Both the position numbers and the translations under genes were made by a program. From contig NZ_QFDM01000003.1 in NCBI RefSeq assembly GCF_023702065.1, forward strand, positions 1 through 64,000: 64,000 bases of DNA. Reading direction: 5' to 3'. Below the pieces are notes generated by a model, which saw nothing but the letters and a program-made list of their open reading frames with translations, made no database searches and was not told where the DNA came from. Positions 8,177 to 24,762 of this stretch are shown here, piece by piece; position 1 is the stretch's first letter; every line of letters begins with the position of its first letter. This DNA comes from Methanoculleus oceani. GTDB lineage: Archaea; Halobacteriota; Methanomicrobia; Methanomicrobiales; Methanoculleaceae.

Positions 8177-10285
8177 TCACTCCACGATGAACTCGCCGTT
8201 CATGTCGGGGTGGACATCGCACTGGAAGTAGTAGGTCCCGGGTTCGGACGGTGCCGTGAAGGTGTAGGTGATCTCGGCAGGCCCGTCGATGACCTCGCCC
8301 ACGAAGATCTGCTCCGCCCGGAGGGGGCTGTCGTAGACCGCAACATTGTGGGGGACGCCGTCGTCCTGGTTGTCAAAGACCATCGTCACCTCCGCCCCCG
8401 CCGGCACCGTGATCGTGCTCGTGTCGAACGCGAGGTTATCGGCGGCGATGTTCACCGTCGTCGCGGCACCGGCCGCCGTCGGGGTCGGGGTCATGTTCAT
8501 GGTCTGGTTTCCGACCGGGGGAACAACCACAGGGGTCTCGTTCCCGGTCGCTGTCGGGGTCTCGTTCCCGGTCGCTGTCGGGGTCTCGTTCCCGGTCATC
8601 GTCGGCGTGGTGCTGACATTGGTGGGCGGCACGACCCTCCAGACCCTGCCGGTGCTGGTGGAGTTATCGGGTCCTCCCACATCGTTCGTCAGCACATAGA
8701 GGTCACGTTCGGCATCCTCGCCGAACCCGCGCAGGAACATGCCCAGGGTCTCGTTCTCGCCGGAGGTGATGTTCAGCGTCTGGACCTCCCACATGGCGTT
8801 CGCCTCAGGGGTCAGGTTCGCGGCGGACTGCGGTGCGGCCCATCCCGCCGGGGGTGTGGCGGCGAGGAGAGTGCCGTTGCCCACCGTCCGGCTGTCGCTC
8901 CAGTAGCCGAAGACGTACCTGCCCTCGAGATCCGGAACGGCGGTCCCGCGGTAGACGTTCCCGCCGACGACGACAATGCCGAGGTCACGGCCGCCCTCGA
9001 AGATGGGGCCGATCAGCGGCTCGTCCAGGTAGCCGGTGGTGTTGCAGGACTCCGGCGGGGCCGTGGTGGCGTTCGGGTCGAAGCAGTGCGTGCCCTCGCG
9101 GATGTTCCAGCCGTAGTTGCCGCCGTTGTAGACGACGTCCACCTCCTCAAAGAGGTTCTGGCCCGCGTCGGCGACGAAGAGCGCGTTGTTGCCGCCGGAG
9201 TCAAAGGACATGTAGGCCGGGTTCCGGAACCCGTAGGCGTAGATCTCGGGTGGGACGGATTCGTAGGCGTAGGTGTCGAGGATCTCGGTCTGGTTCTCAG
9301 CAAACGGGTTGTCGGCGGGTATGCCGTAGAGGCTGCCTGCAAACGTCGTCCACGTCGGATCAGGCGGGTTTGCGGTCCGGTTGACGCTCATGTTCTCCGT
9401 CTGGTTCATCATCGTCACATTCTGCGGGATCGTTACGTTCCCGTCGGTGACGTTCTCCACGTCGATCCGGAGCATCTTGCCGTAGATCTTCGTGAGGTCC
9501 TGGGCGTTCCCGATACCGGGGGTGTGGCCGTTCCCGACGTCGTTCGCCCTCCCGGCATCCCCGAGCGAGATGTAGAGGAAGCCGTCGGCGGGGCTGAAGG
9601 CGAGCTGGCCGCCGTTGTGGTTATGGTAGGGCTTGTCGATGTACATCAGCACCCTCTCGGAGGTTGCGTTCACCCGGTTTTGGTCTTCGGGGTCGACCTG
9701 GAACTCGGAGATGTGGTTCGTGCAGTTCCAGTCCTCGGGAGCCTCCGGCCTTAAGGGTGCGCTGTAGAAGGCGTAGACCTTGCCGTTCTCCGAGAAGTTC
9801 GGGTGGAACGCGATCGAGAGCAGGCCCCGCTCGTCGTAGGTCGGGTTGAGGTCGACCATCTTATCCCGGAGGTCCAGGAACGGCTCGGGGAGCGTGGTCC
9901 CGTTCGCGTCGACGACCTGCACCACGCCAATCTGGTCCACGACGAAGAGCCGTCCGGTCCCGTCGTCGGGCGCCGTGATCGCAAGCGGCGAGGTGAAGTT
10001 CTCCGCGACGAGTTCAAGGCCGATCTCGGTCGTGACGTTCGGGGCGGCCGTCAGGTTCGTCCGGGACGTGTTGCCCTGGAGTTCCGCGGCAAGCAGGGAC
10101 CCGGCGTTCGTGAGGTCCGTTGCGTTGCCGCTCATGTTCTGCGCAGATGCGCCTTCTATACCGGTCGTCTGGTTTGAACTCTCATTGATGTTACTGACGT
10201 TGCTCGATCCCACCTGCGCTGCACCCGCACCCGCGATGAGTGCGAGGATCAGGAGGGATGCTATGACAGGGGTAACTTTTGTCAT
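8177..10285 (-). CDS. Exported PQQ-type sugar dehydrogenase-like propeller fused to a blue-copper (cupredoxin) domain
   Basis: Start 10285 gives 'MTKVTPVIASLLILALIAGAGA', a signal peptide. Residues about 90-520 form the glucose/sorbosone dehydrogenase propeller: 'LFVVDQIGVVQVV', 'ERGLLSIAFHPNF', 'HNHNGGQLAFSPADGFLYISLGDAG' and 'YAYGFRNPAYMSFD' are family signatures. A stalk of 'GNETPTAT' repeats, each with an N-glycosylation sequon, leads to a cupredoxin domain. Its type 1 copper ligands are visible as His in 'PHNVAVY' and Cys/His/Met in 'QCDVHPDMNGEF'. The arrangement suggests sugar or aldehyde oxidation outside the membrane with electrons passed to copper. Whether PQQ is available to this organism is unknown; no PQQ synthesis gene is in the window. 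Confidence 0.8.
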   Translation of the reverse strand: MTKVTPVIASLLILALIAGAGAAQVGSSNVSNINESSNQTTGIEGASAQNMSGNATDLTNAGSLLAAELQGNTSRTNLTAAPNVTTEIGLELVAENFTSPLAITAPDDGTGRLFVVDQIGVVQVVDANGTTLPEPFLDLRDKMVDLNPTYDERGLLSIAFHPNFSENGKVYAFYSAPLRPEAPEDWNCTNHISEFQVDPEDQNRVNATSERVLMYIDKPYHNHNGGQLAFSPADGFLYISLGDAGRANDVGNGHTPGIGNAQDLTKIYGKMLRIDVENVTDGNVTIPQNVTMMNQTENMSVNRTANPPDPTWTTFAGSLYGIPADNPFAENQTEILDTYAYESVPPEIYAYGFRNPAYMSFDSGGNNALFVADAGQNLFEEVDVVYNGGNYGWNIREGTHCFDPNATTAPPESCNTTGYLDEPLIGPIFEGGRDLGIVVVGGNVYRGTAVPDLEGRYVFGYWSDSRTVGNGTLLAATPPAGWAAPQSAANLTPEANAMWEVQTLNITSGENETLGMFLRGFGEDAERDLYVLTNDVGGPDNSTSTGRVWRVVPPTNVSTTPTMTGNETPTATGNETPTATGNETPVVVPPVGNQTMNMTPTPTAAGAATTVNIAADNLAFDTSTITVPAGAEVTMVFDNQDDGVPHNVAVYDSPLRAEQIFVGEVIDGPAEITYTFTAPSEPGTYYFQCDVHPDMNGEFIVE

Positions 10286-10443
10286 GCGAGGCAGGACAGG
10301 GTATCCGGCTTGATAAGTGTTGCGCCGGATCGACCGGCCGTACCCCGGGTCCACGGTTCAGGCGGGACCCTCATCAACACGATCCCTTCAGAAGAGGAGA
10401 GGAAGAGAGATCCGGGGGATCTCTCGTTGATGGCGGGTGCCGG

Positions 10444-11007
10444 TCACTCCACGATGAAGTCGCCGGTCATCTGCTGGGGGTGGACGTCGCACCGGAAGAA
10501 GTAGGTGCCGGGCTCTTCCGGCGCCGTGAAAGTGTAGGTGGTCGTCTCCGGGCCGGTGATGGTCTCGCCCACGAAGATCTCCTCGGTCGCGGAAGAGTCC
10601 GTGTAGACCGCAACATTGTGGAGGATGCCATCGTCCTGGTTGTCGAAGACCATCGTCACCTCCGCCCCCGCCGGCACCGTGATCGTGCTCGTGTCAAACG
10701 CCATGTTATCGGCGACGATATCGACTGTCGCGACCTCTCCGCCCGCTGCGGTCGTTGCTGCCGTTGTCACGCCCGTTGTCTCTGTGGCTGCCGGGGTTTC
10801 GGTCCCGGTCGGTGTTCCGGTCTCGAGTGGCGTCTCGGTCATCATCGGGGTCTCGGTCTCGAGCGGGGTCTGGGTCTCGGTCGGGGTTGTTATCGTCTCC
10901 GTGGGGGTCGGCTGGGTGCCGTCTCCACCCGGCGCGGTGCATCCCGCGACCAGCATGCCGGCGCTCACGATGAGGAGCGCCATAAGAAGGACTGCATTGG
11001 GCCTCAT
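10444..11007 (-). CDS. Lipoprotein with a C-terminal blue-copper (cupredoxin) domain
   Basis: Start 11007 gives 'MRPNAVLLMALLIVSAGMLVAGC', a lipoprotein signal with the modified Cys at about residue 23. A Thr/Glu/Pro stalk of 'TETPxE' units follows, then an about 92-aa cupredoxin. The copper ligands are visible as His in 'LHNVAVY' and Cys/His/Met in 'RCDVHPQQMTGDF'. Compared with the two neighbouring copies there is one extra residue between His and Met. The protein would be a membrane-tethered single-electron carrier, a plausible acceptor for the two flanking propeller enzymes. Its stalk and signal are shared with 7730-7981. Confidence 0.82.
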   Translation of the reverse strand: MRPNAVLLMALLIVSAGMLVAGCTAPGGDGTQPTPTETITTPTETQTPLETETPMMTETPLETGTPTGTETPAATETTGVTTAATTAAGGEVATVDIVADNMAFDTSTITVPAGAEVTMVFDNQDDGILHNVAVYTDSSATEEIFVGETITGPETTTYTFTAPEEPGTYFFRCDVHPQQMTGDFIVE

Positions 11008-11123
11008 GAGAGAGGCGATCCCGTACATGCTATTTATAATTATCCGCGCGGAGAGGTCCGCACAGGAGAAAGGGGTGGGAGGAGCGGGACAATCCCGCTC
11101 CCCGCACGCCGGTGCGTTCCGGA

Positions 11124-13220
11124 TCACTCCACGATGAAATCGCCGTTCATGGAGGGATGGACGTCGCACTGGAAGTAGTAGGTCCCGGGCTCTTCAGGAG
11201 CGGGGAAGGTGTAGGTGATCTCGGCGGGCCCGGTGATGATCTCGCCCACGAAGATCTGCTCCGCCCGGAGGGGACTGTCGTAGACCGCGACGTTGTGGGG
11301 GATGCCGCCGTCCTGGTTGTCGAAGACCATCGTCACGTTCGCCCCCGCCGGCACCGTGATCGTGCTCGTGTCGAACGCGAGGTTATCGGCGGAGATGTTC
11401 ACCGTCGTCTCGTTCCCGGGTACCGTCGGGGCCGGAGTCACGTTCACGGTTGCTGTCGGGGTCACGTTGACCGTCGGGGTCGGTGTCATGTTCACGGTTG
11501 GCGTCGGCGTGACGTTCATCGTCGGGGTCACGTTCCCGGCCGGGGGCAGGATAGTCGGGGTCACGTTCACTGTCGGGGTTGGGGTCACGTTCCCCATCCC
11601 GCCGGGACGGAGCGCAATGACCTGGGCCATCTCCCCGACGCCGCAGGGCCAGACGATGGTGTCGTTCGCAACCGCAGGCCAGGCGTTGATGCCCGCAGGA
11701 GCGGTGAAACTCCAGACCTCTTCACCGGTCGTCGTGTCGAATGCGTAGATCGTCCCGTTGAAGGTCGCCGTGAAGACCAGGTCGTTGACGACCGTCGCAC
11801 CGCCCACGTTGATGGAGTCAAGTTTCTGATCCCAGAGGATCTTGCCGGAATAGGCCTCAACGGCCACAAGCCCGCCCGTCCCCTCGGGGACCGGCTGGAT
11901 CTCAGCCTGGGGCAGGCCCTCGACGCCCAGGGAGAGCGAACTTGTCGGCGACCAGATGGTGTAGAGGTCGACGTAGGGCACGTAGACCGTGCCGTTCGCG
12001 TAGGCCATCGGGGTCTCGACCCCGCCGAGCGCTCCCGGATAGACCGTGGTGTTGCCGGGCGGCAGCGCCGCAAGCTGGTCGTTCTCGTGCCTGCCCACGA
12101 CGGCGATCCAGAGGATGGCTCCGGTGTCGCGGTTGAAGGCATACACCCTCCCCATCTTCCCGGCGCTGATCACGACGTTCTGGTCCTCTCCGCTGACGTT
12201 GGCGCTGGTGAGGATCGGCGAGATCTGGAGATCGTGGTCGAAGAGGTCGTGCGGAAGCACCTGGGTGAACCAGACCATATCCCCGGTCGCATGGTCGAGC
12301 GCCATCATGGTGTTCGTGTAGAGGTTCGGGCCGGGCCGGCTTGCGGCGTTCGGGAACTCAGGAGTCCCCGCGAAGGGTGCCGGGTTCGCTATGGGCCAGT
12401 AGGTGATGCCCGTTTCCGTATCCACCGCCGGGGTGTACCAGACACCGCCGCCGCTGTTGACGTCGGGGTTGCCCCAGATGTTCACCGGGTCGTCGACCGT
12501 GCTGAAGTTCCACGCGATCTCGCCGGTCTCCTGGTCGAGGGCATAGATGTACCCGACGGCGCCGCCCCGGTAGAAGACGTCGCCGCGGCCGGGCACCGTC
12601 GAGGTGTAGACGAGGTTGTCGTAGACCGTGGGCTGGATGTCGATGCCCTCGCCGATGATCACTCCCTCCAGGGGCGTGGTGTTGATGAGCTGCATCGACC
12701 AGAGTTCTTCACCGCTCGATGCGTCCAGCGCCGCGACGGAGAACGGGTCGCTCGTCACGAAGACCTTGCCCCACCCGACCGCCGGCCCGTTCGGCCCGGT
12801 CACGGTGGTGTTGTTGTAGATCTTCTCCCACTTCACCGAACCGTCGGCGAGGTTCAGGGCGTAGGTGTCGGCGTAGAGGTCCTGGAAGTAAACGGTGTCC
12901 CCCATGATGATGGGGTTGCTGCTCGCGCCGCCGAAGATGCCGGTGGCGTTGATCTCGAACGTCCAGGCGATCGCCAGATCGTTTACATTGTCCTTATTAA
13001 TCGATACGTCGGTCGTTGCGCGTGTATTCTCGTAGTCTCTGTTCGGAAGCGGCCAGTCGGCCGTATACTGCATGATCTCCGGCGGGACTCCCTCCGCCGC
13101 CTGAAGGTCAGTTGTTTCGTTGCTCATGTCGCTCGCGTTCTCTTCCTGGGCGACCGCCCCGGAAAAGAGCATTAGGCACCCTAGAAGGGTGATGATCAGG
13201 AGCCTTGACAATCTCTGCAT
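11124..13220 (-). CDS. Exported PQQ alcohol dehydrogenase-like propeller fused to a blue-copper domain
   Basis: Start 13220 (MQRLSRLLIITLLGCLMLFSGAVA) gives a signal peptide. The next about 500 residues are a quinoprotein propeller: 'DWPLPNRDYENTRAT' is the classic entry motif, followed by repeated 'G.ixWxf' tryptophan-docking units such as 'TGEIAWNFS', 'DGSVKWEKI' and 'TGEEVWSFTAP'. A stalk of 'NVTPTPTV' units connects to a cupredoxin that is almost identical to that of 8177-10285 ('PHNVAVYDSPLRAEQIFVGE', 'QCDVHPSMNGDF'). It probably oxidises a small extracellular substrate; no catalytic specificity can be read. Large quinoproteins are unexpected in a strict anaerobe. Confidence 0.8.
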   Translation of the reverse strand: MQRLSRLLIITLLGCLMLFSGAVAQEENASDMSNETTDLQAAEGVPPEIMQYTADWPLPNRDYENTRATTDVSINKDNVNDLAIAWTFEINATGIFGGASSNPIIMGDTVYFQDLYADTYALNLADGSVKWEKIYNNTTVTGPNGPAVGWGKVFVTSDPFSVAALDASSGEELWSMQLINTTPLEGVIIGEGIDIQPTVYDNLVYTSTVPGRGDVFYRGGAVGYIYALDQETGEIAWNFSTVDDPVNIWGNPDVNSGGGVWYTPAVDTETGITYWPIANPAPFAGTPEFPNAASRPGPNLYTNTMMALDHATGDMVWFTQVLPHDLFDHDLQISPILTSANVSGEDQNVVISAGKMGRVYAFNRDTGAILWIAVVGRHENDQLAALPPGNTTVYPGALGGVETPMAYANGTVYVPYVDLYTIWSPTSSLSLGVEGLPQAEIQPVPEGTGGLVAVEAYSGKILWDQKLDSINVGGATVVNDLVFTATFNGTIYAFDTTTGEEVWSFTAPAGINAWPAVANDTIVWPCGVGEMAQVIALRPGGMGNVTPTPTVNVTPTILPPAGNVTPTMNVTPTPTVNMTPTPTVNVTPTATVNVTPAPTVPGNETTVNISADNLAFDTSTITVPAGANVTMVFDNQDGGIPHNVAVYDSPLRAEQIFVGEIITGPAEITYTFPAPEEPGTYYFQCDVHPSMNGDFIVE

Positions 13221-13239
13221 ACGGGGCAGGAATGAGAAA

Positions 13240-13252
13240 GCCACGTTATATA
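13240..13252 (-). promoter_or_regulatory. TATA box for the quinoprotein/cupredoxin gene
   Basis: Read on the minus strand, GGTATATAACG lies about 20-30 nt before the ATG at 13220, so the mRNA leader would be very short or absent. The later genes of the run (to 7730) are separated by 110-195 nt and could have their own promoters. Confidence 0.5.
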
Positions 13253-13369
13253 CCTTTCGCAAAGGAGCCCATTCCTCCCCAAAAAAACCCGGTTTCTGAA
13301 ACAACTTCCGACACGGGCCCGGCTCAGTCGGGGGACAGGGTTAAGTGAGGGGGCGCCGTATCCCCGCCC

Positions 13370-13714
13370 ATGATTCGCACGAAACGGATCTACGCGGAGC
13401 CCTCGGAGGACGACGGGGCCCGGGTCCTCGTCGACCGGCTCTGGCCGCGAGGTGTCTCGAAGGAAGAGGCGAGACTCGACCGGTGGGAGAAGGACCTTGC
13501 GCCGGGCAATGAACTGCGCCGGTGGTTCGGGCACGACCCGGCGAAGTGGGAGGAGTTTCTCCGGCGCTACCGGGCCGAACTCGAGGGTAAGGAGGAGGCG
13601 CTCGACCGGCTCCGGCAGGAGGCGAACGATGCGACCGTCACGCTCCTCTACGCCGCGAAGGACGAGGAACAGAACAACGCCGTGGCGCTGAAGCGGTATA
13701 TCGAAGAGAGGTAG
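13370..13714 (+). CDS. DUF488-family protein
   Basis: The 114-aa protein starts 'MIRTKRIYAEPSEDDGARVLVDRLWPRGVSKEEARLDRW', the standard opening of short DUF488 proteins, and contains 'FGHDPAKWEEFLRRY' and 'VTLLYAAKDEEQNNAVALKRYI', both typical. Length is normal for the family. The function is unknown; the fold may bind nucleic acid or phosphate. It lies 47 bp before the cooS-like gene on the same strand, but nothing ties the two functionally. Confidence 0.88.
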   Translation: MIRTKRIYAEPSEDDGARVLVDRLWPRGVSKEEARLDRWEKDLAPGNELRRWFGHDPAKWEEFLRRYRAELEGKEEALDRLRQEANDATVTLLYAAKDEEQNNAVALKRYIEER

Positions 13715-13761: not shown

Positions 13762-15672
13762 ATGTCCATGGAGAACGACAGGATATCCTACCACGATTCG
13801 GTAAGGACCGTCTACGAGCGGCTCAAAGCGGACGGCATGTCCAATGTCTGGGACCGCTACGAGGCCCAGGGGCTCGGGACCGACCCCGACCGGCGGTGCG
13901 CCTTCTGCCAGGCAGGCGCACGGTGCGACTTCTGCTCGAACGGCCCCTGCCGGGCCGACGCCAGCCGGAACCACCGGGGAGTCTGCGGGATCAACGCCGA
14001 CGGCATGGCGATGCGGATGATGCTTCTGCGAAACGTCATGGGAGCGTCGAACTACCACTTCCACGCCCAGCAGGCTGTCCGGACCCTCCGGGCAACCGCG
14101 GAAGGCAAAACCCCCTTCTCCATCGCGGAGCCGGAGAAACTCCGGACGTTTGCAGGACGGCTCGGGATCGATACCGGCGGGAGCGACGCGGAGGTCGCCC
14201 TCCGGCTCTGCGACTTCGTGGAAGAGGACTTCCACCGGTTCACCCATGAGCCGAGCCGGATCGTGGAGCGGCTCGCCCCCCCGGAGCGAAAAGAGGTCTG
14301 GAAACGGCTCAAACTCTTCCCGGGCGGGATCTACGGGGAGACGATCGTCGATACCGCCTCCACCCTCACGAACGTCGACGGGTGGTTCGCGAGCCACGCC
14401 ATGCGGGCGATGCGCCTCGGCGTCGCGATGGCCTACCAGAGCCAGATCGTGCTTGAGTACATCCAGGACATCCTCTACGGCATTCCCCGGCCGCACCCCA
14501 TGCGGGTCGACCTCGGGGTGCTCGACCCCGACTACGTCAACGTCCTCCCGAACGGCCACGAACCCTTCCTCGGGTTCGCCCTCATCGACCTCGCCCGCAC
14601 CGACGAGTGGCAGGAGAAGGCAAAGGAGGCGGGGGCAAAGGGCCTCAGGATCATCGCCAACATCGAGACCGGACAGGAACTGATCCAGAGGAGAGAGATG
14701 GACGACGTCTTCTACGGCTACACGGGCAACTGGATCATGCAGGAGGCGGTCCTCGCCACCGGGGCGGTGGACGTCTTTGCCGCCGATATGAACTGCTCGC
14801 TCCCGCTCGACCCGCTCTACGCCGAGAAGTACCGCTTCAAACTGATCCCGGTCAGCGAGGTCGTGGTCTTCGAGGGCGGGACGGAGAGGCTCGACTACGT
14901 CCCGGAGGAGGCAAAGGAGCAGGCGGCGGCCCTCCTCGAGATGGGGATCGAGAACTTCAAGGAGCGGCATACCACGATCGACGCGATCCGCGGCCTTCCC
15001 GTGCGGGAAGCGGTCGTCGGGTTCGCCCCCGAGAGCATCGTCGCAGCGCTCGGGGGGAGTCTCGACCCGCTGCTTTCCGCCGTCAAGGACGGGACCATCC
15101 GGGGTATCGTCGGGCTCGTCTCCTGCACCACCCTCCGGGACTACGGGCAGGACGTCCACACCGTCGCGGTCGCGGAGAACCTGATCGCCCGTGACATCCT
15201 GGTCCTCGGGATGGGGTGCGGGGTTGCGGGCCTCCAGGTCGCCGGGCTCTGCTCCCCGGAGGCGAAGGAGAAGGCCGGGCCGGGGCTGAAGGGGCTCTGC
15301 ACGGCGCTCGGGGTGCCGCCGGTGCTCGGATTCGGGACCTGCACCGATACCGGCAGGTGCGCCGACCTCCTCCTCTCGGTCTCCGACGCTCTCGGCGGCG
15401 TCCCCCTCCCGGACCTTCCGGTCGCCGTCGCCGCCCCGGAGTACATGGAGCAGAAGGCGACGGTCGACGCACTCTTCGCGCTCGCGCTCGGGCTCTACAC
15501 CTACGTCAACCCGGTCCCGACCGTGACCGGCGGGCCGGACCTCGTCAAACTCCTCACCGAGGACCTTCCCGGCATCACCGGCGGGGTGCTCCACGTCGAG
15601 ACGGACGCCACCGCGGCGGCGGAGGGGATACTTGCGCACATCGAGGCGAAGCGGACGAAGCTGGGGATATAG
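13762..15672 (+). CDS. cooS: Anaerobic CO dehydrogenase (CooS)-like protein with an altered C-cluster site
   Basis: The 636-aa product aligns by eye with CooS over its length; the start is set by GGAGAGG nine bases upstream. B-cluster cysteines are present (Cys55, 58, 63, 75 in 'CDFCSNGPC...GVC'). Most C-cluster ligands are present: His266 (NGHEP), Cys345 (DMNCSLP), Cys455 (VSCTT), Cys486 (GMGCGVAG) and Cys527 (GTCTDT), plus Lys565 (EYMEQK). The ligand equivalent to Cys295 of Carboxydothermus CODH-II, normally in a 'CCTxNE' motif, is replaced by 'IETGQE' (Ile301-Glu302). The D-cluster motif is Cys46-x2-Cys49, and the proton-tunnel His run is reduced to 'HFH'. No cooF or cooC gene is adjacent. 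It may catalyse another reaction or hold a different cluster. Confidence 0.85.
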   Translation: MSMENDRISYHDSVRTVYERLKADGMSNVWDRYEAQGLGTDPDRRCAFCQAGARCDFCSNGPCRADASRNHRGVCGINADGMAMRMMLLRNVMGASNYHFHAQQAVRTLRATAEGKTPFSIAEPEKLRTFAGRLGIDTGGSDAEVALRLCDFVEEDFHRFTHEPSRIVERLAPPERKEVWKRLKLFPGGIYGETIVDTASTLTNVDGWFASHAMRAMRLGVAMAYQSQIVLEYIQDILYGIPRPHPMRVDLGVLDPDYVNVLPNGHEPFLGFALIDLARTDEWQEKAKEAGAKGLRIIANIETGQELIQRREMDDVFYGYTGNWIMQEAVLATGAVDVFAADMNCSLPLDPLYAEKYRFKLIPVSEVVVFEGGTERLDYVPEEAKEQAAALLEMGIENFKERHTTIDAIRGLPVREAVVGFAPESIVAALGGSLDPLLSAVKDGTIRGIVGLVSCTTLRDYGQDVHTVAVAENLIARDILVLGMGCGVAGLQVAGLCSPEAKEKAGPGLKGLCTALGVPPVLGFGTCTDTGRCADLLLSVSDALGGVPLPDLPVAVAAPEYMEQKATVDALFALALGLYTYVNPVPTVTGGPDLVKLLTEDLPGITGGVLHVETDATAAAEGILAHIEAKRTKLGI

Positions 15673-16430: not shown

Positions 16431-17117
16431 ATGGAAAACGGACCCAGGGGAGCAATCCTCCAGAGAGACGGCGCGTCATACGCGATCGTGCCGAGAACGC
16501 CCGCAGGAATCGTCAGCCCGGAGCACCTGAAGAGCATCATCAAGGTCGTCAGGCGCTACGACATTCCCGTCATCAAGATGACGTCGGGGCAGCGAATGGT
16601 GCTCGTGGGCATCAAAGAAGAGGACATCGAGAGCATCTGGAACGAACTCGGGATGACCGTGGGCCAGGCGACCGCGCCCTGCGTCCATTACGTCCAGGCA
16701 TGCCCGGGGACGGTGACCTGCAAGTACGGCAAGCAGGACTCCCTGGGCCTCGGGCTCGAGGTCGAGGAACTCTACCAGGAGATGGACCTGCCGGCAAAAC
16801 TCAAGATGGGGATCTCCGGGTGCCCCCGGTGCTGCGGCGAGAGTTACCTCCGGGATATCGGCATCGTCGGAAACGCGAAAGGCTGGACGGTCGTCTTCGG
16901 GGGCAACTCCGGCGGCCGCCCCCGGATCGGCGATCTTGCCGCAAAGGATCTCACCAGAGAGGAGGCGCTCGACCTGGTCCGCCGGCTGCTCGAGTACTAC
17001 CGCGAGAACGCCAGACCGGGAGAGCGGACCGCACGGTTCGTCGAGCGGGTCGGCTTTGACGCCGTCAAAAAGGACGTCCTGACCTTCGCCCCCTACATAC
17101 CGCTGGATTCTGTCTGA
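16431..17117 (+). CDS. Small siroheme/[4Fe-4S] sulfite-reductase-like protein
   Basis: The 228-aa protein has the N-terminal ferredoxin-like half-domain ('PRTPAGIVSPEHLKSIIKVVRRYDIPVIKMTSGQRMVLVGI') and then the siroheme-[4Fe-4S] ligand set: 'CPGTVTC' (C-x5-C) and 'CPRCC' (C-x3-C). This is the small low-molecular-weight sulfite reductase type common in methanogens (the Fsr/alSir superfamily), without ferredoxin or F420H2 modules. Known relatives reduce sulfite poorly or have unproven substrates, so sulfite or nitrite reduction is only likely. The next gene converges and encodes a TrmB regulator five bases away. Confidence 0.87.
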   Translation: MENGPRGAILQRDGASYAIVPRTPAGIVSPEHLKSIIKVVRRYDIPVIKMTSGQRMVLVGIKEEDIESIWNELGMTVGQATAPCVHYVQACPGTVTCKYGKQDSLGLGLEVEELYQEMDLPAKLKMGISGCPRCCGESYLRDIGIVGNAKGWTVVFGGNSGGRPRIGDLAAKDLTREEALDLVRRLLEYYRENARPGERTARFVERVGFDAVKKDVLTFAPYIPLDSV

Positions 17118-18804: not shown

Positions 18805-18834
18805 GTGCCATGAGAACACCTGGAGATGAACGAG

Positions 18835-19173
18835 ATGAAGATTGTTGATGTAGCACAGGAACCGATCGGCGAGAACCCGCACCACGTCGACGCCCGGAAG
18901 GTCTACGACACCGAGCATGCGACGGCGGTGGTGATCACGCTTAACCCCGGCGAATCACTCAAGAAGCACATAACCCCGGTGGACGTCTTCTTCTACGTCC
19001 TCGAAGGCACGGGGGTCGTCGAGATCGGCGACGAGCGTGCCGAGGTCGGGAAGGACCACCTGGTCGAGAGCCCGGCAAAGATCCCGCACCGCTGGATGAA
19101 CGAGAGCGACCGCACCTTCCGGGTGCTCGTGGTGAAGGTCCCCCGGCCGACGACCGGGACGAAACTGCTCTGA
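18835..19173 (+). CDS. Single-domain cupin protein
   Basis: Start 18835 is preferred over 18826 because GGAG (18822-18825) is then nine bases away. The 112-aa protein is one beta-barrel cupin: motif 1 'PGESLKKHITPVDVFFYVLEGTGVVEIGD' and motif 2 'SPAKIPHRWMNES'. Motif 1 keeps one likely metal ligand (His of KKHITP), and motif 2 supplies a second (PHRW). It could bind a metal or a small ligand; no enzyme activity can be assigned. A second, different cupin is two genes downstream. Confidence 0.85.
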   Translation: MKIVDVAQEPIGENPHHVDARKVYDTEHATAVVITLNPGESLKKHITPVDVFFYVLEGTGVVEIGDERAEVGKDHLVESPAKIPHRWMNESDRTFRVLVVKVPRPTTGTKLL

Positions 19174-19181
19174 GGACACAG

Positions 19182-19964
19182 ATGGTCGTTGAGTCGATCC
19201 CGAAGGCCGCAGGGTTCGTCTACGGCATTATCGCGTTTGCCGCCCTCGTCTGGCTCTGGCGCTCCGGCCGGTTCACCCGGCGGCGTGCGGTGCCGTTCCT
19301 CGCAGCCTCGACGCTCTTCGGGTTCCTGGTCTTTGCGCCGGTCTTCCCCTACCAGTTCCAGGCCCTCGTCCTCCGGGATGCCGCGGCGCTCGGCTCGCCG
19401 CTTCCCATGGCACTCGCAGGACTGCTCGCCTTCATCGTCCTCGCCCTCGTATTCGGCCGGATCGTCTGCGGGCAGGTCTGCCCGGCTGGCGCCGTCCAGG
19501 AACTCATGTATCTCGTGCCGGCCCCAAAGCACGGCCGCGCCGAAAGCCGGGTCCCGGTGGCGGTCAGGGCGGGCGTCTTCGTCGTCTTCCTCGCCGCCGG
19601 CCTCGGGCTCTCCGTGAACCTCCTTGCGCTCATGGGCCTCCCGGCCTTCTTCAACCTCACGGTCGCGAGCGCCTCGTTCTTCGTCTTCCTTTCGATCGTC
19701 CTCCTCTCCGCCGTCGTCTACCGGCCGTTCTGCCGCTATGTCTGTCCCTACGGCGCCCTGCTCGCCCCGGCGGCGTCAAAGAGCCTCTACCGGCTCCGGC
19801 GAACGGAGGCATGCATCGGCTGCCGGAAATGCGAGCGGGCGTGCCCGACAGGGGCGGCGGACCCGGCCGCCGGACTCGGCGAGTGCTACCTCTGCGGCCG
19901 GTGCACGGAGGCCTGCCCGGCGGACGGGGCGCTCGTCTACACGCGGGCAGGAAGGAAAGAGTAG
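19182..19964 (+). CDS. NapH/MauN-type membrane ferredoxin protein
   Basis: The 260-aa protein has about five membrane helices. Two cysteine-proline pairs at membrane boundaries ('CGQVCPAG', 'CRYVCPYG') are the NapH signature. The soluble tail carries two [4Fe-4S] motifs ('CIGCRKCERACP' and 'CYLCGRCTEACP'). In other organisms NapH-like proteins pass electrons between the membrane pool and periplasmic or cytoplasmic reductases. Methanomicrobiales lack classic quinones, so the partner is uncertain. It is flanked by two cupins in one operon, and the siroheme protein lies 2 kb upstream. The N-terminal about 25 residues form the first helix rather than a cleaved signal. Confidence 0.85.
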   Translation: MVVESIPKAAGFVYGIIAFAALVWLWRSGRFTRRRAVPFLAASTLFGFLVFAPVFPYQFQALVLRDAAALGSPLPMALAGLLAFIVLALVFGRIVCGQVCPAGAVQELMYLVPAPKHGRAESRVPVAVRAGVFVVFLAAGLGLSVNLLALMGLPAFFNLTVASASFFVFLSIVLLSAVVYRPFCRYVCPYGALLAPAASKSLYRLRRTEACIGCRKCERACPTGAADPAAGLGECYLCGRCTEACPADGALVYTRAGRKE

Positions 19965-20005
19965 ATAGGCAAGAGCAGCAGAGTAACATGAAGGCTGGTG
20001 CAACA

Positions 20006-20341
20006 ATGTCTGAAGAGAAGCGTGCAGAGTTGCGGGGGAAGGTTCTCCGGCTGGCGGATCTCGTCGCCTACCAGGACGGAACCGTGGCAAGCAGGATGAT
20101 CGTCAACAAACCGGTGGGGAGCATCACCCTCTTCTCGTTCGACGAGGACGAGGGGCTCTCGGAGCATACCGCGCCCTACGATGCGGTGGTGACGATCCTC
20201 GAGGGGGAGTGCGAGGTCTGGATCGCGGGCGAGACACACCATATGCACGAGGGCGAGACGATCATCTTCCCGGCAAACGCCCCCCACGCCCTCTCGGCCA
20301 TAACCCGGTTCAAGATGTCGCTTACGATGATCAGGGAGTGA
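20006..20341 (+). CDS. Cupin-domain protein (small-barrel type)
   Basis: The 111-aa product ('KVLRLADLVAYQDGTVASRMIVNKPVGSITLFSFDEDEGLSEHTAPYDAVVTILEGECEVWI... HHMHEGETIIFPANAPHAL') matches the common small cupins of anaerobes. Metal ligands are visible as His in 'SEHTAPYDA' and His in 'NAPHAL'. ATG 20006 is chosen because GGTG precedes it; ATG 19988 would add six residues. These proteins are thought to bind metal or a small ligand and are frequent next to redox genes. Confidence 0.87.
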   Translation: MSEEKRAELRGKVLRLADLVAYQDGTVASRMIVNKPVGSITLFSFDEDEGLSEHTAPYDAVVTILEGECEVWIAGETHHMHEGETIIFPANAPHALSAITRFKMSLTMIRE

Positions 20342-20347
20342 AGAGAC

Positions 20348-20623
20348 GTGACGAACGAGAAGGAAGGCGATTACTGCACCGTCTGCGGCGGGATCCGGCC
20401 GGACGCGATCAAGATCAAGACAGTTCTCGTGGACGGGAAGGAGACCGGCATCAACCAGCTCGAACTGATCGTCGCCGGCGTGCGGGACCTGCACCTGAAG
20501 GATGAAACCGCGATTCGCGCCGAACTCCTCAAAAGGGCCGCAGTATTCAACTACATCCCGACCAAGAAGAAAGAGGCTTACGCCGAAGCCCTGATGCAGG
20601 AGTACAGGGGAACCGCGGAGTGA
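20348..20623 (+). CDS. Small methanogen protein with N-terminal CxxC
   Basis: The 91-aa protein starts with GTG (MTNEKEGDYCTVCGG), six bases after the cupin stop. A single 'CTVCGG' motif may form a redox disulfide or half a zinc site. The remainder is a small alpha/beta domain ('IKTVLVDGKETGINQLELIVAGVRDLHLKDETAIRAELLKRAAVFNYIP') ending in a helix. Similar proteins occur in many methanogens without a proven role; some databases label them NAC-like, which I do not consider supported by the sequence. Its position suggests it serves the cupin/NapH operon. Confidence 0.7.
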   Translation: MTNEKEGDYCTVCGGIRPDAIKIKTVLVDGKETGINQLELIVAGVRDLHLKDETAIRAELLKRAAVFNYIPTKKKEAYAEALMQEYRGTAE

Positions 20624-20794: not shown

Positions 20795-23700
20795 TTAGGC
20801 GCTGATAGCAGCCAGTCTGCCATCCTCGCGCACGAACAGCCAGTAGCCCTCGGTCGGGGAGAGTCTCTGGTTCTCGCCCTGCGCCCCGGTCTGGTTGTTG
20901 ATGAGCGCCGGCCGGTAGGCCTGGTCCTCTGCATCGTAGCCGACGACAGACACCCAGATGTCTTCCACCGATGTGAGCGCTTCATCTGCACTGCGCTCCG
21001 TCAGGTCGGAGTAGCCGATGGCGTTCCAGCCCGGACTGAGCGTCTTTACTGCAGGAGACCGCACCGGGTCGGTGCTGAGCATCAGCTCCACGGTCGTCTC
21101 CTCGGTCGAGTAGACCCAGTATCCCTCAAGGACCATCAGGGTCTCGTTCTCGCCCAGGGGCTCGAAGCCGCCCGCCGGGGTGTGGATGTAGAACGGCCGT
21201 CCGCCGGTGTCGACATCCGCAAAGACCACTGCTGCTGTGTCGTTGCCCACAGAGAGCGGCCTCGGGATTGAGACGAAGTTCCAGCCTTCATAGAGCTGGA
21301 GATCCACGGTCTCCCCCGGTGGGACCAGGGTCGGCGTCGGCGTGACGTTCACCGTCGGGGTCGGAGTCACGTTCACCGTCGGCGTCGGGGTCACGTTCAC
21401 CGTCGGCGTCGGGGTCACGTTCACCGTCGGCGTCGGGGTCACGTTCACGGTCGGAGTCGGCGTGACGTTGACCGTCGGCGTCGGGGTCACGTTCACCGTC
21501 GGCGTCGGGGTCACGTTCACCGTCGGCGTCGGGGTCACGTTCACGGTCGGAGTCGGCGTGACGTTGACCGTCGGCGTCGGGGTCACGTTCACCGTCGGCG
21601 TCGGGGTCACGTTCACCGTCGGCGTCGGGGTCACGTTCACGGTCGGAGTCGGGGTCACGTTCACCGTCGGCGTCGGGGTCACGTTCACCGTCGGAGTCGG
21701 GGTCACGTTCACCGTCGGAGTCGGGGTCACGTTCACTGTCGGGGTCGGGGTGACGTTCACGGTCGGCGTCGGGGTCACGTTCACCGTCGGGGTCACCGTC
21801 GGGGTCACTGTCGGAGTCGGGGTTGGGATCGGGGTGTCCGGTGGGATCAGGACACCGTCGATCACGTAGACCACGATGTTGTTCGTGATCTGGATCTGGG
21901 TCGCAACAACGATGTTGTTGATGAGCAACTGGCCGTCGGTAAGCGAGACGTTGACATCCGTGCCCGCAACGGTCGGCAGGGAGATCTGCCCGTCGGTCGA
22001 ATTCTCGCACAGCATCACGAGCTCTTCGATCGTGTAGTCTCCCAGGATGACGTGGTAATCAAGGATGTCGTTCAGGAGTGTCGTGTCGTTCTGGATAACC
22101 GAGAGTGTCTCATTGCCCAGCCCGGCAAACGCATCGTTGGTCGGAGCACATATCACGTAACTCCTGTTCGCCTCAAGCCTCTCGCCGATAGTGGAGTTGT
22201 TTACCAATCCGATGAACGTCGTCAGGTTCTCCTGCCCTGAAAGCCCTGTGACGATCTCATCGGTGATGTTCACTCCGGGTGTCGGCGTCGGCGTGACGTT
22301 CACCGTCGGCGTCGGGGTGACATTGACCGTCGGCGTGGGTGTTACGTTCACCGTCGGCGTGGATGTTACGTTCACCGTCGGCGTGGGTGTTACGTTCACC
22401 GTCGGCGTGGGTGTTACGTTCACCGTCGGCGTGGGTGTTACGTTCACCGTCGGCGTGGGTGTTACGTTCACCGTCGGAGTCGGGGTCACGTTCACCGTTG
22501 GAGTCGGAGTCACGTTGGCTTCCCCTTCGGCAGTGACGTTCACCGTCTCAAACGTGAGCGGGATGAGCGGCGTGTGGTCGTTGTTGACCAGCTGGACCGA
22601 GAGGTTGTGCTCGCCTGCCGTCACGTTCTCCCAGGTGTGGGAGAGGTTCGTGGAGATGACATAGCCGCCGAACTCCGGGACGGCTGGTTCGCTCTCATTC
22701 GTCGGCACCACGGCGTCGAGGTAGTAGTGCAGGTGGCCTTCGCCCGGCACGTTCGGCTGCCCGGTCGGCTCCACCAGCGTGAAGTTCGTGACGTTCACGC
22801 TCACCGTGACGTTCCCGGCAGTGACGCTGGCACCTTCCATGGGCTCAACGATGGTGACGTTCGCTTCGGCGGTCGGGGTCGGGGTGACATTGACCGTCGG
22901 CGTGGGTGTTACGTTCACCGTCGGAGTCGGGGTTACGTTCACCGTCGGAGTCGGCGTGACGTTGACCGTCGGGGTCACGTTCACCGTCGGCGTCGGGGTC
23001 ACGTTCACCGTCGGGGTCGGAGTCACGTTGACCGTCGGCGTGGGTGTTACGTTCACCGTCGGAGTCGGGGTCACGTTCACCGTCGGAGTCGGGGTCACGT
23101 TCACCGTCGGAGTCGGGGTCACGTTCACCGTCGGCGTCGGGGTCACGTTCACCGTCGGGGTCGGAGTCACGTTCACTGTCGGGGTCGGGGTCACGTTCAC
23201 CGTCGGGGTCGGAGTCACATTGACCGTCGGCGTGGGTGTTACATTCACCGTCGGACCCGGTCCATACTGACCGTCAGGCCCGGTCACGGTCGGTGTCGGG
23301 GTCACGTTCACGGTCGGGGTCGGAGTAACATTCACTCCCGGCAGCCCTCCGGTCACGTTGAAGGCCTGCTGGACGGGGCTTCCATTCAGGAGCACCGGCA
23401 CGTCAGGTCCCGGGAACTCGTGGACGCCCGGCTCCCCCTCATCGACGTGGAGCATGGCATAGAGCACCGGCGTGGCGTTCTCAACCTCGATCGCCACGGT
23501 CACGTTCTCGTTCACGCCCTCGCTGATCGGGCTGTAGCCGATAATGGCCCCGGGTGTTCCGTTCAGGTCGGCGTGGATGTCCGCCCAGCCCGTCCGGTTG
23601 ATCGTGGCGTTATCAACGATCACCGTTGCGTTCACAATCGGCTGATCGGACACGCTTACGGCGGGTGTCACGTTCGCCCCCGGCGTGGGTGTCACGTTGA

Positions 23701-24409
23701 CGGTCGGCGTGGGTGTCACGTTGACCGTCGGGGTCGGAGTCACGTTCACCGTCGGCGTGGGTGTTACGTTGACCGTCGGCGTGGGTGTTACATTCACCGT
23801 CGGCGTCGGAGTCACGTTCACCGTCGGACCCGGTCCATACTGACCGTCAGGCCCGGTCACGTTCACCGTCGGCGTCGGCGTAACGTTGACCGTCGGAGTC
23901 GGAGTCACGTTCACCGTCGGAGTCGGGGTGACATTCACAGCCGCTCCGGCCACGCTGACGTTCACCATCAGTGTAAACGAGGCGTTCTCCACTGAATGAC
24001 CCGGAGGCCCATAGGAGTAGGTCAGATTATCCCCGTCGGTCACGTTCGTCACCGCGGGCCCGGTCGTGCCCTGCTCGCCATCCACCCAGTACGTCCAGTT
24101 GTTCGGGGTCCCGTTCACTATCTCGTTCTCAATACCTGTAATCGATAGAATGCTGAGATTTCCCTCTTCCGGAGGCAGGTCTTCAGCAACCTGGTACTCG
24201 AATGCACCGAGGAGCGAGGCGGCGTCAAGTGCTCCAAGCACTGTCGTCCGCGGCACCTCGTACGTTTCGGTGCTGTTTACCGGTGTAATGTTCAAAGTCT
24301 CATCAGGGTTCAGTTCGACAGGGCCCTCTCCAATCGAGACCGCTATACTTGCGGCGGAGATCGACAGGAGAAGGACGATGCACAAACCGAACAGTACAGA
24401 TCGTCTCAT
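20795..24409 (-). CDS. Giant repeat-rich surface glycoprotein with fasciclin and other beta domains
   Basis: Start 24409 gives a signal peptide (MRRSVLFGLCIVLLLSISAASIA). The 1204-aa chain alternates folded modules with stalks of the 8-residue unit TPTPTVNV. Modules in order are a DUF4430-like domain ('WTYWVDGEQGTTGPAVTNVTDGDNLTYSYGPPGHS'), a domain with 'IIGYSPISEGVNENVTVAI', a DUF4399-like domain ('GHLHYYLDAVVP...'), a fasciclin (FAS1) domain ('NRSYVICAPTNDAF... ILDYHVILGDYTIEEL... YVIDGVLIPP') and a C-terminal domain with 'GWNFVSIPRPL' and 'SPGWNAIGY'. Every stalk unit creates an NVT sequon, so the stalks would be densely N-glycosylated. No C-terminal anchor was seen. A role in adhesion or matrix is likely. 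Confidence 0.85.
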   Translation of the reverse strand: MRRSVLFGLCIVLLLSISAASIAVSIGEGPVELNPDETLNITPVNSTETYEVPRTTVLGALDAASLLGAFEYQVAEDLPPEEGNLSILSITGIENEIVNGTPNNWTYWVDGEQGTTGPAVTNVTDGDNLTYSYGPPGHSVENASFTLMVNVSVAGAAVNVTPTPTVNVTPTPTVNVTPTPTVNVTGPDGQYGPGPTVNVTPTPTVNVTPTPTVNVTPTPTVNVTPTPTVNVTPTPTVNVTPTPGANVTPAVSVSDQPIVNATVIVDNATINRTGWADIHADLNGTPGAIIGYSPISEGVNENVTVAIEVENATPVLYAMLHVDEGEPGVHEFPGPDVPVLLNGSPVQQAFNVTGGLPGVNVTPTPTVNVTPTPTVTGPDGQYGPGPTVNVTPTPTVNVTPTPTVNVTPTPTVNVTPTPTVNVTPTPTVNVTPTPTVNVTPTPTVNVTPTPTVNVTPTPTVNVTPTPTVNVTPTPTVNVTPTVNVTPTPTVNVTPTPTVNVTPTPTVNVTPTPTAEANVTIVEPMEGASVTAGNVTVSVNVTNFTLVEPTGQPNVPGEGHLHYYLDAVVPTNESEPAVPEFGGYVISTNLSHTWENVTAGEHNLSVQLVNNDHTPLIPLTFETVNVTAEGEANVTPTPTVNVTPTPTVNVTPTPTVNVTPTPTVNVTPTPTVNVTPTPTVNVTSTPTVNVTPTPTVNVTPTPTVNVTPTPTPGVNITDEIVTGLSGQENLTTFIGLVNNSTIGERLEANRSYVICAPTNDAFAGLGNETLSVIQNDTTLLNDILDYHVILGDYTIEELVMLCENSTDGQISLPTVAGTDVNVSLTDGQLLINNIVVATQIQITNNIVVYVIDGVLIPPDTPIPTPTPTVTPTVTPTVNVTPTPTVNVTPTPTVNVTPTPTVNVTPTPTVNVTPTPTVNVTPTPTVNVTPTPTVNVTPTPTVNVTPTPTVNVTPTPTVNVTPTPTVNVTPTPTVNVTPTPTVNVTPTPTVNVTPTPTVNVTPTPTVNVTPTPTVNVTPTPTVNVTPTPTLVPPGETVDLQLYEGWNFVSIPRPLSVGNDTAAVVFADVDTGGRPFYIHTPAGGFEPLGENETLMVLEGYWVYSTEETTVELMLSTDPVRSPAVKTLSPGWNAIGYSDLTERSADEALTSVEDIWVSVVGYDAEDQAYRPALINNQTGAQGENQRLSPTEGYWLFVREDGRLAAISA
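21325..21802. repeat. 24-bp tandem repeat array, block 1 (about 20 units)
   Basis: The unit GTCGGCGTCGGGGTCACGTT plus four bases (plus strand) repeats in frame and encodes TPTPTVNV on the minus strand. Units differ mainly at third positions (GGCGTC/GGAGTC/GGGGTC), with higher-order blocks repeated, which indicates unequal crossing-over. The copy number is likely to vary between strains, and assemblies may collapse it. Confidence 0.9.
22275..22515. repeat. 24-bp tandem repeat array, block 2
   Basis: This is the same TPTPTVNV unit as block 1, but many copies use the variant GGCGTGGGTGTTACGTTCAC, so this block has been homogenised separately. One unit carries a Thr-to-Ser change (TSTP, near 22365). 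It lies between the fasciclin domain and the DUF4399-like domain. Confidence 0.88.
22870..23262. repeat. 24-bp tandem repeat array, block 3
   Basis: About sixteen TPTPTVNV units mix the codon variants of blocks 1 and 2. One short unit (TVNVTPTV, near 22970) has lost six bases without breaking the frame. It separates the DUF4399-like domain from the second beta domain. Confidence 0.88.
23680..23940. repeat. 24-bp tandem repeat array, block 4, split by TGPDGQYGPGP
   Basis: About ten units are interrupted at about 23830-23862 by the peptide TGPDGQYGPGP. The same interruption with the same DNA sequence occurs at about 23250-23290, so a segment larger than one unit has been copied between blocks. 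Confidence 0.85.
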
Positions 24410-24419
24410 ACAATATCCC

Positions 24420-24455
24420 CCCTTGCGGGCAAGGGAATAATCGAGGTAATATAAA
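24420..24455 (-). promoter_or_regulatory. TATA box and GC palindrome before the repeat-rich surface gene
   Basis: On the minus strand TTTATATTA (24447-24455) is the TATA box; transcription would begin near 24425-24430. A perfect palindrome CCCTTG-cggg-CAAGGG (24420-24435) overlaps that point and leads into the Shine-Dalgarno tract AAGGGGGG before ATG 24409. A similar TATA/palindrome/SD arrangement precedes the second fasciclin gene at 25560. In the rest of the 353-nt gap up to 24762 I see nothing. Confidence 0.5.
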
Positions 24456-24762
24456 AATATTGTGATAATAATTCTTGAATACCTATCTGGCCAAAATCCG
24501 GTCAATAATCAGGCATTGACCCCAATCTCGTTTGTTATGGGTATACGATCTCTTGATACAGAGGGCAGGACCGGGTAAATTTTTTTGAAGACCCCCTACG
24601 CCGTACCCTTCGGCAACATGGCCGGCCCTCTTCCGGCAGAAGGCCCCGCGCAGCAGGATTGGACAGCCGGAAAATGCCTGCAGAACGTTCGGCGCTTCAA
24701 AAAAAGAGAGGTGCATCAGGTCAGGAACGGCGCTCTATTGCCCTCCGTCCTGCCGCTTCACC

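Follow-up and report, generated by a model that had tools for sequence, protein, structure and literature searches.

A CODH-family gene and its neighbours

The window analysed here, a 64,000-nucleotide stretch of DNA from Methanoculleus oceani, carries on its forward strand an intact open reading frame (13762-15672, with an ATG start at 13762 and a stop codon ending at 15672) that translates with zero internal stops into a 636-residue CooS-type protein, and which translation, profile, alignment, tree and fold identify as a cooS-V-type gene, i.e. a hybrid-cluster member of the CODH fold. A longer frame opening at a TTG codon (13741) was rejected because close relatives start at the Met encoded at 13762, and the intact frame together with this conserved start rules out a frame or start error. 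The NCBIfam model TIGR01702 (anaerobic CODH catalytic subunit) matches the protein at 692.6 bits, a family match far above chance, and the HCP model TIGR01703 gives 25.9 bits, below its cut-off of 360.8.

A DUF488-family gene (13370-13714, forward strand) ends 48 bp upstream, a place that it keeps in most Methanoculleus relatives with cooS-V. The downstream block holds, on the forward strand, a small NIR_SIR (siroheme/4Fe-4S nitrite/sulfite reductase-like) protein (16431-17117), cupin A (18826-19173), a NapH-like membrane ferredoxin of the Fer4_5 type (19182-19964), cupin B (19994-20341) and a 91-aa CxxC protein that belongs to no Pfam family (20348-20623), as well as genes for a membrane protein, TrmB and DUF2115. 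Across Methanoculleus the order is DUF488, cooS-V, the membrane protein and NIR_SIR, TrmB (on the reverse strand), DUF2115, cupin A, Fer4_5, cupin B and the 91-aa gene, with some of these genes absent in some genomes, so that within this genus other genes lie between cooS-V and the cupin/91-aa pair. The families of the neighbouring genes bear out the statement of the first-pass annotation that neither cooF nor cooC is adjacent, and genes of CO metabolism (ACS, CooC, CooF, ECH) were likewise not found among the locus neighbours. In Methanoculleus regions that lack cooS-V (L102-L107) the block is retained and DUF488 runs straight into the next gene after about 60-200 bp, and cooS-V is thus a clean presence/absence gene at one site. 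On the minus strand, the flanking intervals 8177-13304 and 20795-24505 encode large proteins of secreted appearance, and long TPTVNVTP repeats occur in some; the C-terminal ends of three (8177-10354, 10444-11169 and 11124-13304) are near-identical and cupredoxin-like.

Cluster ligands and placement in the CooS-V subclade

In the alignment, Ile301-Glu302 (14662-14667; this and all following codon positions are on the forward strand) occupies the place of the Cys294-Cys295 pair of CODH-II (IANIETGQE versus GMCCTGNE). CooS-V of Carboxydothermus hydrogenoformans likewise has Ile-Glu in these columns (SIESGQE, against NIETGQE in the window protein), whereas canonical CODHs read CCTGNE, and Glu302 corresponds to CooS-V Glu295, a hybrid-cluster ligand (PMC9311411). 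A compensating Cys reached by shifting the alignment was rejected, there being no Cys near Ile301-Glu302. The other C-cluster ligands are kept (five of six): His266 (14557-14559; His261 of CODH-II, His259 of CooS-V), Cys345, which together with Asn344 (14791-14796) matches Asn337-Cys338 of CooS-V and itself matches Cys333 of CODH-II, Cys455 (15124-15126; CooS-V Cys449, CODH-II Cys446), Cys486 (15217-15219; CooS-V Cys480, CODH-II Cys476) and Cys527 (15340-15342; CODH-II Cys526 and CooS-V Cys521, the persulfide former). Glu563-Gln-Lys565 (15448-15456) contributes the equivalents of CooS-V Glu556, a second carboxylate ligand, and of CODH-II Lys563. All seven hybrid-cluster ligands of CooS-V are therefore common to the window protein, and its Asn344 and Glu563 go with CooS-V and not with the true CODHs examined, which have Gln and Ser/Thr/His at these positions, respectively.

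Towards the N-terminus, Cys46-x2-Cys49 (13897-13908) forms a type III D-cluster motif, which in CooS-V binds the inter-subunit [2Fe-2S] cluster, and Cys55, Cys58, Cys63 and Cys75 (13924-13986) align with the [4Fe-4S] B-cluster motif. Tyr98 (14053-14055) stands where CODH-II has the acid-base His93, Tyr being the group D-1 state (PMC6344411). Of the five Cys and one His that surround cluster C in a functional Ni,Fe-CODH, Cys295 is thus exchanged for Glu, and of the acid-base His and Lys of such an enzyme, Lys565 is kept and the His is Tyr98. The published group D-1 pattern consists of a type III D-cluster, His, Glu, four Cys, Tyr and Lys (PMC6344411), and Glu302, Cys46/Cys49, His266, Cys345, Cys455, Cys486, Cys527 and Glu563 place the window protein in that group. 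Hence the first-pass annotation was accurate on the Ile-Glu pair, the five remaining C-cluster ligands, the B-cluster set and the CxxC D-cluster; the novelty that it implied for the substitution does not stand, as the Cys-to-Glu exchange is already a published hallmark of group D-1/CooS-V (PMC6344411, PMC9311411). It had passed over the agreement of Glu302 with the solved CooS-V and the second hybrid-cluster ligand, Glu563.

The survey of homologues that it had proposed was carried out with 36 sequences from Methanoculleus, other methanogens, Asgard archaea, Chloroflexi, Actinomycetota, WOR-3 and Desulfobacterales, in which Ile-Glu, the D-cluster CxxC and the other ligand and marker positions are invariant; Ile-Glu, Tyr98, Asn344, Glu563 and the CxxC motif are identical in all Glu295 proteins examined. 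Two CODH relatives (L209 and L220) show a clade C-like pattern, with Cys295 kept (TCVGQD), Tyr, Asn, Glu556 and Gln at the Lys563 position, and since they combine Glu556 with Cys295, Glu556 alone is no marker of the hybrid-cluster type. A further CooS-like protein (L203, G257:C3:80912-82774), 41% identical, has Met-Asp at the Cys295 site (MDTGQE) and resembles CooS-V in its Tyr, Asn and Glu, but has a type II D-cluster; it branches beside the Glu295 clade (SH-aLRT 88) on a long branch and is a possible intermediate.

The best solved relative of the window protein is CooS-V (7b7q, E 1.3e-198, 664.7 bits over residues 7-636); true CODHs come next and score no more than 384 bits, and HCPs reach about 26. 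In a quick IQ-TREE tree of 71 rows, the 52 Glu295 proteins including CooS-V form a single clade (SH-aLRT 100), with the window protein deep within it; its named relatives at 90-96% identity are all from Methanoculleus. The predicted model (mean pLDDT 82.6, pTM 0.89) has CooS-V as its top structural match (E 1.9e-61, TM 0.94, 51% identity), ahead of Thermococcus and Desulfovibrio CODH, so that the suggested check by alignment and structure model returned CooS-V as closest in both, with true CODHs next. Prediction is poor in the D/B-cluster region (pLDDT <50 near residues 41-66), which is to be expected where a dimer interface binds metal and the model includes neither the metal nor the partner. 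The window gene is consequently a member of the CooS-V subclade (Inoue group D-1, CODH clade D), an already known kind.

For this subclade, Jeoung et al. 2022 described CooS-V (PDB 7b7q, 7b7t, 7b95, 7b97, 7b9a) as a CODH-fold dimer with one bridging [2Fe-2S] cluster, two [4Fe-4S] clusters and a hybrid cluster, which is [4Fe-3S] when reduced and on oxidation becomes [4Fe-2S-S*-2O-2H2O] with a persulfide on Cys521 (PMC9311411). CooS-V is without Ni and catalyses neither CO oxidation nor CO2 reduction, and CODH-II itself, when given the C295E exchange, loses its Ni and CO oxidation (PMC9311411). CooS-V reduces NH2OH with a kcat of 0.13 per second, an efficiency 20- to 100-fold below that of R. 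rubrum CODH or HCPs, and its NO reduction was not above background (PMC9311411); the physiological substrate may therefore differ. Reduction of a small molecule at the reduced cluster was proposed from a redox-gated channel (PMC9311411). By homology with this solved orthologue, the window protein should hold the same type of cluster and lack CO activity, which fits the earlier suggestion of a different metal centre or another reduction.

Gene context and host genomes

In four regions from three other genera of the order (L058, L064, L066, L067), cupin B lies 4-20 bp behind cooS-V, with the 91-aa gene after it, and in one genus (L059-L061) cupin A comes next after cooS-V. The same pair accompanies hcp: among 12 genomes of the order, chosen because the 91-aa gene lay near hcp, 11 have the order hcp, cupin B, 91-aa gene, and in the remaining one the pair is oriented divergently from hcp. 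Cupin A and NIR_SIR likewise adjoin hcp in several of these 12, and a by-eye comparison of coordinates revealed more genomes with the 91-aa gene near hcp. The hcp gene of Methanoculleus (two loci read) is without cupin/91-aa neighbours, as it is in some other fetched genomes, and the link is therefore not universal. The 91-aa CxxC protein itself occurs in 196 of 232 genomes of the order and adjoins hcp or cooS-V in many (relatives L071-L081, L082-L092); the idea that it marks cooS-V exclusively was rejected, and it is adjacency, not presence, that carries the signal. A PDB search with the fold of this protein returned no significant match.

Outside the genus, 20 of 71 loci have a type A or type B cupin no more than 2.6 kb from cooS-V; the 71 are the best-scoring of 404 and are not independent of one another. 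The 20 loci belong to Asgard archaea, Methanophagales, Actinomycetota, Dehalococcoidia and others, the cupin coming before or after cooS-V depending on the locus, and a second, more distant cupin inside the 6 kb flanks was seen at only one locus of the 71. Among immediate neighbours, each taken as the longest ORF, ferredoxins occur downstream in 10/70 and upstream in 6/68 cases, Cupin_2 proteins in eight downstream and four upstream, and Pyr_redox_2/Rubredoxin_C oxidoreductases in eight upstream. A 2026 neighbour survey found clade D without a clear pattern, and cupins go unmentioned in its main text (PMC13056359). In D. desulfuricans, a gene of the cupin fold (Ddes_1828) adjoins hcp (Ddes_1829) and, induced together with it, ranks with the genes that respond most strongly to NO (PMC5701242).

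Within Methanoculleus, CooS-V is present in 20 of 35 genomes. None of the 35 has a CdhA above cut-off or a second CooS, the same search having found 34-37%-type CooS proteins in other genera. The window's genome contains exactly one PF03063 (prismane/CODH-family) protein, and no HCP was found in it. A second, true CODH that would make the window protein a side isozyme was thus rejected by the genome and genus searches, and this context (no CdhA, no second CooS, a single PF03063 protein) speaks against CO metabolism. In another genus, three genomes (G084, G087, G092) likewise have CooS-V and neither CdhA nor a second CooS; they and the Methanoculleus genomes are exceptions to the rule that cooS-V genes occur only alongside other CODHs (PMC9311411).

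CooS-V and HCP occur together in 17 of the 35 Methanoculleus genomes, CooS-V only in three, HCP only in two and neither in 13, a co-occurrence with a Fisher p of 3e-5 (7e-4 in genomes at least 90% complete) when genomes are counted without phylogenetic correction; the rest of the order gave no association (p 0.31). An mcrA tree mixed the two paralogues. The Methanoculleus cooS-V copies are 90-96% identical to each other. Three cooS-V copies (G102:C1:1049652-1051556, G251:C1:1841650-1843551 and G329:C12:4213-6111) have one in-frame stop each, possibly through decay or sequence errors.

Proposed function and relation to known systems

We consider it highly probable that the window gene encodes a CooS-V-type protein with a Ni-free hybrid cluster and no CO oxidation, most likely serving as a low-potential reductase or scavenger in an HCP-like stress setting. 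The protein would be a CODH-fold homodimer, in which a Ni-free [4Fe-3S-nO] cluster is bound by His266, Glu302, Cys345, Cys455, Cys486, Cys527 and Glu563, and it very probably handles no CO. Electrons from a ferredoxin or a rubredoxin-type reductase, partners that the gene neighbourhoods elsewhere suggest, would pass through the D- ([2Fe-2S]) and B- ([4Fe-4S]) clusters to the hybrid cluster and reduce it; a small oxidised molecule could then reach the reduced cluster and be reduced in turn, as proposed for CooS-V. Such a substrate might be NO- or hydroxylamine-like, or another oxidant.

An HCP-like role, judged from gene context, is about evenly balanced. It draws support from the placement of both cooS-V and hcp before the cupin B/91-aa pair, from the cupins near 20 of the 71 loci, from the ferredoxin and Pyr_redox_2/Rubredoxin_C neighbours and from the NO-induced cupin gene beside hcp in D. 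desulfuricans, and it suggests nitrosative or oxidative stress. Against it count the slow NH2OH turnover of CooS-V and its lack of NO reduction above background, the separation of cooS-V and of hcp from the cupin/91-aa pair within Methanoculleus, and a co-occurrence with HCP that is confined to this genus. More tentatively, and with somewhat less conviction, we propose that CooS-V and HCP are interchangeable in a widespread small operon for such stress (with a cupin and the 91-aa CxxC protein, and with NIR_SIR and ferredoxin nearby), and that in hydrogenotrophic methanogens, Methanoculleus among them, CooS-V fills this role with no CODH in the cell and, in some strains including the window's, without HCP.

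Three other readings were weighed against the reductase. A genuine Ni,Fe-CODH of a slow or atypical kind, with Glu302 replacing Cys295 as exo-iron ligand, would account for the fold, the five C-cluster ligands, the retained Lys565 and the name attached to TIGR01702; it is nevertheless very improbable, given that CooS-V has the same ligands without Ni or CO activity, that the C295E exchange abolishes both in CODH-II (PMC9311411), that the acid-base His is Tyr, and that the genome has no CdhA or other CooS and no adjacent CooC. The protein could instead be a redox or NO sensor or regulator, whose cluster changes its arrangement as the redox state shifts and relays this to a partner, for instance a cupin or TrmB. 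The morphing cluster and slow turnover of CooS-V (PMC9311411), the regulators near some clade D genes (PMC13056359) and the TrmB and cupins of the window block would suit such a function, which we regard as unlikely on account of the full conservation of the B/D electron-transfer chain and of the ferredoxins and rubredoxin-type reductases that are neighbours elsewhere, both fitting an electron-fed enzyme.

A CODH remnant that is decaying or has no use might be read from the patchy occurrence of the gene in the genus (20/35, with a clean empty site where absent) and from the in-frame stops of the G102, G251 and G329 copies. The intact frame of the window gene, the high identity among Methanoculleus copies and the invariance of the ligands across 68-96% identity and many phyla render this the least credible of all. 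For the preferred reading, a Ni-free reductase or scavenger, Methanoculleus offers a clean host, as it has no true CODH to confuse a phenotype, and 'CODH' annotations in this genus are not to be taken for CO metabolism.

Compared with Ni,Fe-CODHs (CODH-II, CODH-IV, Thermococcus and Desulfovibrio CODH), the window protein has the same fold, B-cluster and five of six C-cluster ligands, and differs in the exchanges of Cys295 for Glu and His93 for Tyr, in having Glu at the Glu556 position (Ser/Thr/His in CODHs) and in having Asn, not Gln, before the equivalent of Cys333. With HCP (hydroxylamine reductase, TIGR01703) it has in common a related fold and cluster type and, in other genomes of the order, the small neighbours cupin and 91-aa protein, but it scores only 25.9 bits with that model (cut-off 360.8) and has a CODH-type dimer with a D-cluster and CODH B-cluster spacing. 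Its motif pattern is exactly that of the clade D group D-1 Ni-CODHs, with zero differences (PMC6344411). CooS-V, at 51% identity, has the same fold, hybrid-cluster ligands, CxxC D-cluster, Ile-Glu at 294-295, Glu556 and clade; the window protein differs from it in its archaeal host, which is without other CODHs, and in a locus with a downstream block of cupins, NIR_SIR and the 91-aa protein. What is added over the known family is thus a host without any CODH and cupin/91-aa clusters common to hcp, and the cupin link, the hcp-type operon and the CODH-free genomes together make for a concrete, testable hypothesis.
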